This document shows positions 19,306 to 24,750 of a stretch of 64,000 nucleotides of DNA, piece after piece. The position numbers and the translations under genes are program-made. This DNA is from an uncultured Poribacteria bacterium. Its GTDB lineage: Bacteria; Poribacteria; WGA-4E; WGA-3G. The notes under the pieces are model-generated. The model was not told the origin of the DNA and did not search any database. It saw only the letters and a program-made list of their open reading frames with translations. The stretch covers positions 5,819,200 through 5,883,199 of the forward strand of contig OX639973.1 in assembly GCA_951828385.1 (NCBI GenBank), read 5' to 3'. The first letter of the stretch is position 1, and every line of letters starts with the position of its first letter.

Positions 19306-19803
19306 TTATTTGTTCAGTCCGAGCCTATGGATGCGGTATGCTGTTGATTCGCGAACTTTCATACTTTCTACACTCGCCTCAAACCCCGCGCTTTCAACTG
19401 CCTCAATTAACGCCGTTTTTACACGCGTAGAGATAGCCTCATTAACACCGTTCGCGGGATCCGCACCAGCGACTGCTTGGAGACTAACACGAAAATACTT
19501 CGGTTCATCAGGCTTGAAACGCCATCCGATTTTATTCTCTAAAACAGGTTCGTCTGTTTCATTGCTAATTTTGCCAAATGGAAACATAGTGGTCGTTACT
19601 TTGTAGACAGCATCATCAATAACCACGGTGTCCACCTTTTCCAGCGACTTCATAACACCGAATGTGGAAGTGAACCGTGTCATTCCGGTAACTGACAATG
19701 TGACATCGAAACCTGTTTTACCCATTTTTTCCGAAGTGCACCCGAACGTAAAAACAGATGACACGACGAAAAAACAGAGAAATAATCGATTTAACTGGCG
19801 CAT
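19306..19803 (-). CDS. Lipoprotein with degenerate HMA-like start
   Basis: 165 aa. Starts MRQLN like the HMA protein next door, with lipobox F-T-F-G-C (about residue 22). The following V-T-L-S-V-T-G-M-T-R-F-T-S-T lines up with L-N-V-T-G-M-T-U-S-N-C-T of the two neighbouring HMA proteins, with Arg and Thr or Ser where the Sec and Cys would be, and a similar helix and second strand follow. The remaining ~110 residues are unlike HMA and unrecognised. It looks like a paralogue that has lost the metal site and gained a C-terminal domain. Same direction as, and just downstream of, the two UGA genes. Confidence 0.65.
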   Translation of the reverse strand: MRQLNRLFLCFFVVSSVFTFGCTSEKMGKTGFDVTLSVTGMTRFTSTFGVMKSLEKVDTVVIDDAVYKVTTTMFPFGKISNETDEPVLENKIGWRFKPDEPKYFRVSLQAVAGADPANGVNEAISTRVKTALIEAVESAGFEASVESMKVRESTAYRIHRLGLNK

Positions 19804-19827: not shown

Positions 19828-20202
19828 TTAGTTAGCGACTGTTGCCTTAAAACGCGGATCTGCTTCAACAGCCTTAACCAAAGCGTCTGTTGTAACTTTG
19901 CCCTTCTCAACCTTCACCACAGCCTTATTCTCATCCATAGAAACACTGACCACTTCAGAAACGCCGGTAACCTTTGTAAGTGCATCCTGCACCGCACTGG
20001 TACAGTTGCCTCACATCATCCCCGTGACATTCAGTGTGATCTCTTCAATGCTGGCTGCTGCCATTTGCGTTGGTGTTTCTGTCGTTTCTTCTGCCGTTTG
20101 GCTTGCTGTTTCTGCTGGCTTCTTTGAACTGTCTGCACAAGCAAAAACAAATAGAAGTGCTGCAAAGCAGACAAATAGCATGCTCACGTTTAACTGACGC
20201 AT
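19828..20202 (-). CDS. Predicted selenoprotein: HMA-domain lipoprotein (UxxC)
   Basis: 124 aa if UGA at 20011-20013 is read as selenocysteine. GGAG stands before the ATG. Signal peptide with FAC lipobox-like end (V-F-A-C, about residue 22), a Thr/Glu/Ala-rich linker, then the heavy-metal-associated fold: E-E-I-T-L-N-V-T-G-M-M-U-G-N-C-T-S-A-V-Q, V-T-G-V-S-E-V-V-S-V, KAVVKVEKGKVTTDALVKAV and D-P-R-F-K-A-T-V-A-N. UGA falls exactly on the first Cys of the canonical GMxCxxC metal site. Downstream frame is fully conserved with the second copy, so it is not a pseudogene. Likely periplasmic metal (Cu/Hg-type) binding or a redox role; no transporter gene nearby. Confidence 0.85.
19979..19993 (-). promoter_or_regulatory. 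SECIS-like hairpin of first HMA gene
   Basis: On the coding strand GGTGCA-GGA-TGCACT: five Watson-Crick pairs plus a G-U, loop GGA, starting 23 nt after the UGA. Bacterial SECIS elements sit within the coding sequence at about this distance with G in the apical loop. The second copy at 20448-20462 keeps the same stem with loop GGG. Confidence 0.6.
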
Positions 20203-20262
20203 AAATGTATCTCCTTATTTATAAGAGCGATTTTCCAATCGCGCTCCTTCAACTCATATAGA

Positions 20263-20284
20263 AAGGGCGGATAAATCCGCCCTT
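20263..20284 (-). terminator. Palindrome after second HMA gene
   Basis: AAGGGCGGAT-AA-ATCCGCCCTT, perfect 10-bp stem, 13 bases past the stop of the gene at 20297-20701. U-run weak. An imperfect hairpin (GAGCGATT..AATCGCGCTC, 20225-20246) lies beside it. Probably terminator or dispersed repeat. Confidence 0.5.
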
Positions 20285-20296
20285 CTCTCTATGCCA

Positions 20297-20701
20297 CTAA
20301 TTGGCAACCGTTGCCTTAAAGCGCGGATCCGCTTCAACAGCTTTAATCAGGGCATCAGTTGTAACTTTGCCCTTTTCAACCTTTACGACAGCCGTGTTGC
20401 TCGCTGTAGAGACGCTCACCACTTTAGAAACACCGGTGATATTGCTGAGTGCACCCTGCACCGCACTGGTACAGTTGCTTCACGTCATCCCCGTGACATT
20501 CAGTGTGATCTCTTCAACGGCGGCTTCATCCATGGCTTCTGCTACGTCACTGGCACTCTTCGCTTCAGATTTCATGGGAGCACTGTCCGCAGTACTTGTA
20601 ACAGCGGTCTCAGACATTTCTGCCTTCTGTCCCATCATGCCACAACCTACCATGAAGGCAAAGGCGACAAGACAAATCAGCGATAATCTCGCTATATGCA
20701 T
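20297..20701 (-). CDS. Predicted selenoprotein: HMA-domain lipoprotein (UxxC), second copy
   Basis: 134 aa reading UGA at 20480-20482 as selenocysteine; ATG 20701 follows AAGGAGG on the minus strand. Lipobox M-V-G-C (about residue 20) then GMMGQKAEMS and an acidic Ser/Ala-rich linker. HMA domain: I-T-L-N-V-T-G-M-T-U-S-N-C-T-S-A-V-Q, S-N-I-T-G-V-S-K-V-V-S-V, AVVKVEKGKVTTDALIKAV, DPRFKATVAN. The HMA part is nearly identical to the neighbour's while the lipoprotein heads differ, so the domain is under selection. It probably binds soft metal ions outside the cytoplasmic membrane. Selenium machinery genes are not in the window. Confidence 0.85.
20448..20462 (-). promoter_or_regulatory. SECIS-like hairpin of second HMA gene
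   Basis: GGTGCA-GGG-TGCACT on the coding strand, loop 23 nt after the UGA. Same stem as in the first HMA gene, loop differing by one base, both GG-containing. Confidence 0.6.
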
Positions 20702-20808
20702 GGGGTAACCTCCTTGAATAATTATTTTTTACTATTCTAACATGGTATTAGGTTTCTTGGCAACATATTTTTTACGAAAGCGAAATTATTTGCTAAATAT
20801 ACGAAAAT

Positions 20809-22780: not shown

Positions 22781-24112
22781 ATGGCATTGAAGAAGCCAAA
22801 TATCGTTGTCTACCTTTCTGATGACCACGGTTCGGAATACCTCGGCTGCTACGGGAACGGACATATCCAAACGCCACACTTAGATCGCATCGCTGAAAAC
22901 GGTATCCGTTTCACGCACGCTTTTACACCGACACCGACGTGTGCACCGTCACGTTCCACGCTCTATACAGGACTTTATCCAGCGCGGCATGGCGCAATGG
23001 GCAATCATACGGAGTGTCACGCGCATCTCAAAACCCTACCGAATACGCTCCGCAAACTCGGTTATCGCGTCGCAATCGCTGGCAAGACACATGTAAAGCC
23101 GGAGACGCTCTTCGATTTTGAATACATCGGCGGTTTCCTCCCGAAGTGTACTGAGCATAGACGAAAATACCGAGCAGAAGGACTCGATACGGCTCCTGTT
23201 GAACGTTTTCTTTCAAGCCATCGACAAGAAAATCCAGATCAACCTATCTGCCTCATTCTTGGCGATAGCAACCCCCACGTCACCTGGGAACCCAACAAAA
23301 TTTATGATTCGGATGTCTTGCCATTACCACCTTATATTGCCGATACACCTATCGCCCGAAATGCGCTTGCCAACTACTATCAAGACATCACTACGATGGA
23401 CACCCGTATCGGCGAAGTTGACAAAATGCTGGAGACACACGGATACGCAGATAATACGTTGTTTATCTACACGACTGATCACGGTTCTGAGTGGCCACAT
23501 TGTAAATGGACCTTGTATGACACCGGGACGCGCCTGCCGTTCATCGCGAGGTGGCGCGACGAGATTTCTGCCAATACTGTTTCCGATGCAATGATTTCAC
23601 ACGTCGATTTCTTTCCGACGCTCATAGACATCGCAGGCGGTGAACCGTTGGACGATTTAGATGGCAGCCGTTTTAAGGATGTCCTGCTCGGAAAGCAGAC
23701 GATTTTCCGCGATAAAATCTTCGGCACGCATACCCGCGACGGGAATATGAACGTTTTTCCGCAACGTTGCGTCCGAGATACCCACTACAAGTATATTTTC
23801 AATCTGATGCCTGAAAACAGATGGACAACCCATTTCACCGAAGTGGAAGGTATTCCAGAAAGCCACGCTGAGGTCTGGAAAAGTTGGGTGAAAAAAGCAG
23901 AAACCGATCCGCAAACCGCACAACTCGTCTATCTCATACAACACCACCCCGTAGAGGAATTATACGACCTAACAACAGACCCTTATGAATTCAACAATTT
24001 AGCCTTTAATGCGGATATGCGTCCGACACTCGAAAAAATGCGCAACGATGTTCAAGACTGGATGCGCTCACAAAACGACGAAGGGAGTCGTGAACCATGG
24101 AATCAAGATTAA
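22781..24112 (+). CDS. Type I sulfatase
   Basis: 443 aa. N-terminal N-I-V-V-Y-L-S-D-D-H-G metal site, then C-A-P-S-R-S-T-L-Y-T-G, the C-x-P-S-R sequence whose Cys becomes formylglycine. KTHVKPETL and YTTDHGSEWPHCKWTLYDTG (metal site, first part) follow; DPYEFNNLA near the C-terminus is typical. It needs a formylglycine-generating enzyme, not in the window. No signal peptide, so probably acts on imported sulfate esters in the cytoplasm. The next gene starts inside its last codons. Confidence 0.92.
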   Translation: MALKKPNIVVYLSDDHGSEYLGCYGNGHIQTPHLDRIAENGIRFTHAFTPTPTCAPSRSTLYTGLYPARHGAMGNHTECHAHLKTLPNTLRKLGYRVAIAGKTHVKPETLFDFEYIGGFLPKCTEHRRKYRAEGLDTAPVERFLSSHRQENPDQPICLILGDSNPHVTWEPNKIYDSDVLPLPPYIADTPIARNALANYYQDITTMDTRIGEVDKMLETHGYADNTLFIYTTDHGSEWPHCKWTLYDTGTRLPFIARWRDEISANTVSDAMISHVDFFPTLIDIAGGEPLDDLDGSRFKDVLLGKQTIFRDKIFGTHTRDGNMNVFPQRCVRDTHYKYIFNLMPENRWTTHFTEVEGIPESHAEVWKSWVKKAETDPQTAQLVYLIQHHPVEELYDLTTDPYEFNNLAFNADMRPTLEKMRNDVQDWMRSQNDEGSREPWNQD

Positions 24113-24750
24113 TAGCAAATTATCCGATAAACCCGAAACGGAAAACCCCGTTTTCGGACACTTTTACTTTACTGAACCTTTCAATCCTATTCGCTGCTAT
24201 CATCTTCTTATGTCCAGCATGTGACAAACCAGAGCAGACTTTACAAGATATAATGTCTCAAGAGGACACAGTCGAGCAGCTCCCGTTGGGTGAGGGACTC
24301 GCTATCGGTGCAACGGCACCTGAGTTCTCGTTGCCAGATGCTGACGGGAATCTCCATAGTCTCTCGGATTACAGTGGACAAAAGTTAGCCATCGTCTTCT
24401 ATCGGATGGGGACATGAGGTTTCTGTCAAACGCAACTCGGTGAGTTGCAAACAGGTTATGAAGACATTAAAGCACAAGATGCCGAAATAATTGCCATTAG
24501 TGCCGATTCACAGGTGCTTACAGGCATAACAAAGCAGAATCTCGGGATAACTTATCTCTTACTCTCGGATGAAAATACGGAAGCGATTGATGCCTATAAT
24601 GTTATTGACACAGGGAACATGAGCATAGCGCGCCCAGCAACCTATATTATTCACCAAGACGGGCGTGTTGTGTGGAAGTCCCTTGATGCTCAGTTCGGAC
24701 ACCGCTCCAGTTCGGACCAGATTCTGACAGCGTTGAAGGAATTGGAGTAA
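24097..24750 (+). CDS. Predicted selenoprotein: peroxiredoxin/thioredoxin-fold (UxxC)
   Basis: 217 aa reading UGA 24415-24417 as selenocysteine. Starts by overlapping the sulfatase end by 16 bases. A hydrophobic stretch (about 28-46, ending C-P-A-C) may anchor or export it. The AhpC/TSA fold follows: G-A-T-A-P-E-F-S-L-P-D-A-D-G, L-A-I-V-F-Y-R-M-G-T-U-G-F-C-Q-T-Q-L, E-I-I-A-I-S-A-D-S, then RPATYIIHQDGRVVWKS. Normal relatives have W-C-x-x-C after F-Y-R-G, so U replaces the peroxidatic Cys. The frame remains open and family-like after the UGA. Likely reduces peroxides or disulfides outside the cytoplasm. Confidence 0.87.
24423..24454 (+). promoter_or_regulatory. SECIS-like hairpin of peroxiredoxin gene
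   Basis: GCAACTC (24432-24438), loop GGT, GAGTTGC (24442-24448): perfect 7-bp apical stem. The outer CTGT (24423-24426) pairs with ACAG (24451-24454). The loop begins 21 nt after the UGA, as expected of a bacterial SECIS element. Confidence 0.7.

Follow-up and report, generated by a model that had tools for sequence, protein, structure and literature searches.

Genes A and B, two neighbouring genes in the genome of an uncultured, sponge-type poribacterium, are very probably genuine selenoprotein genes, in each of which a single in-frame UGA would be read as selenocysteine (Sec) at the metal site of an HMA domain. They lie in a 64,000-nucleotide stretch of DNA, hereafter the window, which belongs to a complete, single-contig genome of 6.66 Mb whose relatives are Candidatus Poribacteria. 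The case for Sec is made from sequence: the TGA codon is conserved, the frame beyond it is under purifying selection, a hairpin is tied to it, the host carries the full Sec machinery and the domain has an HMA fold.

The gene pair and its TGA codons

The two genes are in tandem on the minus strand, gene B first and then gene A (Table 1), each with a Shine-Dalgarno-like sequence 7-8 nt upstream of its ATG. They share an architecture of signal sequence, lipobox-like Cys, Ala/Glu/Thr-rich linker and HMA domain with a single TGA. When this TGA is read through, the HMA model PF00403 scores 34.6 bits for gene A and 34.4 bits for gene B (cut-off 24.8). The lipobox-like motif is clear in gene B (MVGC) and weak in gene A (FVFAC), and a loose lipobox-like pattern occurs in 79 of 86 homologue genes. 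Gene-B linkers have a Met content of 12.4%, versus 0.7% for gene A. As claimed in the initial annotation, each gene has one in-frame UGA at the first Cys of the HMA site, within GMMUGNC in gene A and GMTUSNC in gene B, and both frames continue past it to matching ends; each runs for 60 codons before TAA (gene A) or TAG (gene B). Overall identity between the two proteins is 59%, with the last eleven residues (ADPRFKATVAN) identical.

Table 1. Positions of the gene pair, its signals and related genes. Plain coordinates refer to the window; those with an L number refer to other loci.
Feature	Position	Strand	Description
Gene A	19828..20202	-	124 residues; predicted Sec-HMA protein, lipoprotein-like; MRQLNV...FACADSS...GMMUGNC...ADPRFKATVAN; stop TAA
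Gene B	20297..20701	-	134 residues; predicted Sec-HMA lipoprotein; MHIARL...MVGCGMMG...Met-rich linker...GMTUSNC...ADPRFKATVAN; stop TAG
TGA codon, predicted Sec, gene A	20011..20013	-	residue 64; TGA in all gene-A orthologues read
TGA codon, predicted Sec, gene B	20480..20482	-	residue 74
Shine-Dalgarno-like sequence, gene A	20210..20217	-	TAAGGAGA (AAGGAGA); read from sequence
Shine-Dalgarno-like sequence, gene B	20709..20715	-	AAGGAGG; read from sequence
SECIS-type hairpin, gene A	19979..19993	-	GGTGCA-GGA-TGCACT; loop 19987-19985
SECIS-type hairpin, gene B	20448..20462	-	GGTGCA-GGG-TGCACT
Third lipoprotein-like gene	19306..19803	-	165 aa; adjoins gene A, same direction
Prx/TlpA-like gene	24097-24750	+	third predicted selenoprotein gene of the window, lipoprotein-type; TGA 24415-24417 (MGTUGFC)
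Hairpin, Prx/TlpA-like gene	24432-24448		7 bp, GCAACTC-GGT-GAGTTGC, -9.2 kcal/mol
Poly-HMA gene	L113:3649-5076	+	beads U-U-U-U-C; tandem pair still adjoining
Poly-HMA gene	L111:3018-1819	-	beads U-U-U-C-C
Poly-HMA genes	L114, L115, L049/L117		beads U-U-U-C
Cytochrome/WD40/HMA gene, predicted selenoprotein	L118:3455-1764	-	same genome as the window, G000:C1 about 3.385 Mb

Beyond gene A lies a third lipoprotein-like gene, which resembles gene A in its N-terminus and in the start of an HMA-like region; its metal site is lost (GMTRFTS) and it matches MerP weakly (18.8 bits). A minority of relatives have this gene, and in some of them full-length copies are 72-92% identical.

A search for Sec machinery, the check first asked for, found all four components in the genome: one copy of tRNA-Sec (76 bits), to which ARAGORN assigns the anticodon TCA, selB (355 bits) directly adjoining it, selA (604 bits) and selD (363 bits), which has an in-frame TGA of its own at CAGUASK. 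Across the phylum, 72 of 85 genomes yielded selA, and those without a hit are mostly incomplete or belong to distant families. A global reassignment of TGA was rejected, as 8 of the window's 40 long ORFs end at TGA, the anticodon of tRNA-Trp is CCA and the genome contains prfB.

A pattern scan of public genomes returned 22 poribacterial loci, of which 21 carry the tandem pair and one a multi-domain version, with TGA at the Sec position in all. This single scan, which reaches close relatives only, returned no Sec-type relative outside Poribacteria and, besides the poribacterial loci, one Cys-type protein from Lachnospiraceae. The tandem lipoprotein pair had been described as unusual; within Poribacteria it is the standard form. 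Synteny around the pair holds throughout the genus and family, with a conserved order of UvrC-like GIY-YIG gene, gene B, gene A, sometimes the third lipoprotein with the dead metal site, and a PhyH-like gene. In whole-genome searches the domain was present in 81 of the 85 genomes of the phylum, with copies carrying TGA in each of the order's four families.

A wider set was assembled of 106 distinct Sec-type (TGA) and 12 Cys-type (TGT or TGC) HMA domains. TGA and Cys codons stand at the same column, and no random stops occur in the aligned register. At one locus (L109:1674, minus strand; G025:C13) the motif before the hairpin reads GMTUGIS, as if the metal loop had gained a residue or shifted. 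Downstream of the TGA, comparison of gene A with its relatives gave dN of 0.015-0.19 and dS of 0.10-1.1, and comparison of gene A with gene B gave 0.114 and 0.865, respectively. By these substitution rates the frame 3' of the TGA is under purifying selection, and the 106 distinct Sec-type domains together with low dN/dS led us to reject decay or sequencing error.

The argument against decay had initially been drawn from independent conservation of the two window copies. Its conclusion stands on the homologues of other species, but the two copies themselves are not fully independent. In a tree of the 118 domains gene B's HMA domain is placed, for this species group, within the gene-A clade. The HMA domains of the window copies have therefore probably been homogenised, which suggests re-duplication or gene conversion. 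On the minus strand, the HMA halves at 20297-20461 and 19828-19992 look homogenised, and the N-terminal halves of the genes stay distinct. As a result, the independent evidence is that from other species and not that from the pair.

A hairpin tied to the TGA

The stem GGTGCA/TGCACT and the loops GGA (gene A) and GGG (gene B) are present as originally described, although the spacing of 23 nt after the TGA is that of the loop start, and the stem starts at 17 nt. In a first set of 48 copies, taken from the window, another locus of the same genome and the 22 other poribacterial loci, the pattern GTG-CAG-NNN-GCA-CTN is kept in every copy. Codon use elsewhere in the same genes (Val GTG 23%, Gln CAG 37%, Ala GCA 30%) predicts GTG-CAG-NNN-GCA-CT in 1.8% of copies, so its retention lies far outside chance. 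Within the hairpin, the Val, Gln and Ala codons hardly vary at the third base.

Consensus folding of the wider set gives this hairpin alone. Its four core base pairs are intact in 106/106 Sec-type domains versus 3/12 Cys-type domains, even within one polypeptide, and all six base pairs in 98/106 versus 1/12. The Ala codon ends in A in every Sec-type copy versus 4 of 11 Cys-type copies, and the first loop base is G in all 106 Sec-type copies. Compensatory changes were also found: several relatives at the level of the order have GTGCG...CGCAC, and locus L090 has GTACA...TGTAC. Across the aligned domains, then, the hairpin accompanies TGA and disappears where a Cys codon stands instead.

The tree requires four changes between Sec and Cys, at least three of them on well-supported branches, and the clearest exchanges are those in a cytochrome-c/WD40/HMA protein and in the poly-HMA proteins described below. 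Cases in which the hairpin runs against the pattern hardly occur; a sign test falls short of significance because there are only three to four phylogenetically independent Sec/Cys contrasts.

The published bSECIS model has a stem of 4-16 bp, a loop of 3-9 nt with a G in its first two positions, a distance of 16-37 nt from the UGA to the loop and an energy of at most -7.5 kcal/mol (PMC13188914). When the hairpins were checked by folding, stem (6 bp), loop (3 nt, G first) and spacing (23 nt) fitted this model and the energy was borderline. The window copies reach -7.6 and -8.2 kcal/mol in segments of 24 nt, which compares with -6.1 kcal/mol in 20 nt; at 30 nt half of all copies pass -7.5 kcal/mol. 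In a longer segment of the window the lowest-energy fold is a different, less conserved helix, in which TGTACC pairs with GGTGCA. We rejected this alternative in favour of the hairpin because it is fully paired in only 21% of Sec-type copies and leaves unexplained why the Ala and Leu bases in the 3' arm are so invariant.

Beaded and fused relatives and the predicted fold

Several relatives encode, at the same or another place, a secreted protein of four or five HMA beads, most of which carry TGA. Each TGA bead of these proteins has the hairpin; among the Cys beads it is complete in 0/6 and its core is kept in 1/6, despite near-identical surrounding protein sequence. Short-read misassembly is unlikely to have produced them because L111 and L049 come from contigs longer than 5 Mb.

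The host genome also encodes a protein with a signal peptide, a PSCyt1 cytochrome, a WD40 propeller and a C-terminal HMA domain that carries GMTUGAC and the same hairpin. This cytochrome-c/WD40/HMA protein has the Sec codon in the host genome and in families f1 and f4, and Cys in family f3. The cytosolic CopZ-like protein and the P-type ATPase of the host genome use Cys; among the HMA domains of this genome Sec is therefore confined to exported ones. A Prx-like UxxC selenoprotein gene lies 3.4 kb from the pair and has a hairpin of its own (Table 1).

AlphaFold2, run with an alignment of 12 sequences, predicted a ferredoxin-like E-H-E-E-H-E domain with a pLDDT of about 90 for residues 51-120, in which the Sec and Cys pair falls exactly at the metal loop; the linker is unordered. 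The best Foldseek match in the PDB was MerP (1osd; TM 0.90 by target), followed by Cu-ATPase and CopZ domains; sequence profiles agree in placing MerP and Cu-ATPase-type domains nearest.

Possible roles and comparison with known systems

We propose that the in-frame UGA is read as Sec because SelB loaded with Sec-tRNA(Sec) recognises the small hairpin located about 17-31 nt 3' of it. The product would be exported and lipid-anchored at its N-terminal Cys, and its flexible linker would carry an HMA fold of MerP/CopZ type, in which a selenolate/thiolate pair (Sec-x-x-Cys) sits at the metal-binding loop. Within the envelope it would most likely capture or buffer a soft, thiophilic metal, with Cu(I) the first candidate and Hg(II) or Ag(I) the next; the selenolate would raise metal affinity. 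The role is most likely that of an envelope-anchored, high-affinity soft-metal binding domain, probably for Cu(I). The neighbourhood names no metal: no gene for metal transport adjoins the pair, and the conserved neighbours, the UvrC-like GIY-YIG gene and the PhyH-like dioxygenase gene, were rejected as operon partners that could do so, neither being metal-related.

These selenoproteins could instead have a redox role, with the HMA scaffold supporting UxxC as a Prx/thioredoxin-like centre or as one that reduces periplasmic disulfides. Redox sites hold most bacterial Sec residues (PMC9312934, PMC1088965) and the UxxC motif is common in redox proteins; moreover, the Prx-like gene stands close by in the window and a homologous domain is fused to the PSCyt1 cytochrome/WD40 protein. 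Nevertheless, the fold and the GMxUxxC loop are of the metal-transfer type, and the pair has no conserved redox partner beside it. Some proteins for soft metals (Cu(I)/Ag(I)) are rich in Met, and the Met-rich linkers of gene B fit soft-metal binding. We consider a redox role, the main rival, somewhat unlikely and a metal role reasonably probable in comparison with it.

A narrower metal reading, in which MerP-like Sec lipoproteins scavenge Hg(II) or methylmercury at the cell surface, draws on MerP as the top structural match and on the very strong binding of mercury by Sec in general chemistry, and Sec-containing MerP and MerT and other mercury-linked selenoproteins have been predicted elsewhere (PMC2398784, PMC13188914). 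However, no MerT of the genome passes the threshold and its best MerA-like protein, at 394 bits, stays below the curated cut-off of 454, so a mercury operon is not supported and was rejected; with no such operon to take over the metal, we regard mercury scavenging as unlikely.

Explanations that do without Sec fare far worse. Were the TGA a true stop, as it normally is in this genome, the product would be a lipoprotein of 63 or 73 residues, and the downstream half would be decaying or a separately started ORF, for which GTG start codons do exist shortly 3' of each TGA. Such a start would yield half an HMA domain lacking the metal loop, and the purifying selection downstream, the register free of other stops, the orthologue Cys codons in the same column and the TGA-tied hairpin all speak against termination, which we judge highly improbable. 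A variant tRNA that would insert Cys or Trp at the TGA is very improbable: the homologous residue is indeed Cys, but tRNA-Trp has the anticodon CCA, the Sec machinery is complete and a plain suppressor would have no use for a SECIS-type hairpin.

Within the soft-metal reading, Poribacteria may possibly maintain a graded envelope Sec sink for a soft metal or a metal-selenide. Its components, equally tentatively, would be anchored HMA lipoproteins with one Sec each, together with a Met-rich partner and secreted bead proteins that hold as many as four Sec. If true, this sink would be a bacterial counterpart of the multi-Sec selenoprotein P, in design and not in descent, and Sec would be kept across the order as a metal ligand instead of a redox catalyst. 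Almost all bacterial selenoproteins of known role are redox enzymes; here a scaffold of the metal-handling type keeps the predicted Sec across an order of uncultured, largely sponge-associated bacteria. Beads of Sec and Cys type within one chain provide a natural control for bacterial SECIS function and also for the contribution of selenium to the metal site. As gene callers that treat TGA as a stop truncate such genes, the family is probably missing from many annotations.

With MerP (PDB 1osd, 1afi) and CopZ/Atx1, genes A and B share the fold and the position of the GMxCxxC loop, and with MerP the predicted periplasmic location; they differ in having Sec for the first Cys and a lipid anchor, and the MerP model TIGR02052 gives 38.7 bits, below its cut-off of 92.55. 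That Sec in MerP-like HMA domains was already known, as the initial annotation stated, is borne out by two systems. The GOS survey predicted a Sec MerP from marine metagenomes, with two sequences from one sample and no motif given (PMC2398784). The likeness is the selenocysteine in a MerP-like protein, while the lipoprotein anchor, tandem pair and order-wide conservation are not described there (PMC2398784); no mer genes were found in the poribacterial genome. The second system is the NCBIfam family NF041115, a UxxU metal-binding (seleno)protein of 74 residues with two Sec listed (PMC13188914), and a Sec-containing UxxC cation ATPase was also predicted earlier (PMC13188914). Genes A and B resemble NF041115 in having an HMA-type domain with Sec in the metal loop, at about 50 bits across most of the model. 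Their scores of 50.2 and 48.8 bits are nevertheless below its cut-off of 95, and they have UxxC with a signal sequence, lipobox and linker, in contrast to UxxU there. They reach the curated cut-off of no NCBIfam model for known Sec HMA-like proteins.

In the searchable literature neither the tandem lipoprotein form nor an HMA bead protein with three to four Sec was seen to be described, and just two papers contain both Poribacteria and selenocysteine, in neither case in the title or abstract. Given this and the sub-cut-off NCBIfam scores, genes A and B represent a new form of the already known Sec-HMA proteins. A 2026 review lists two to three Sec in a small multi-Sec subset of prokaryotic families (PMC13188914). 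Like those proteins, the poly-HMA relatives are predicted to carry more than one Sec per chain, but they do so as three to four Sec beads, each with its own hairpin, followed by one or two Cys beads.
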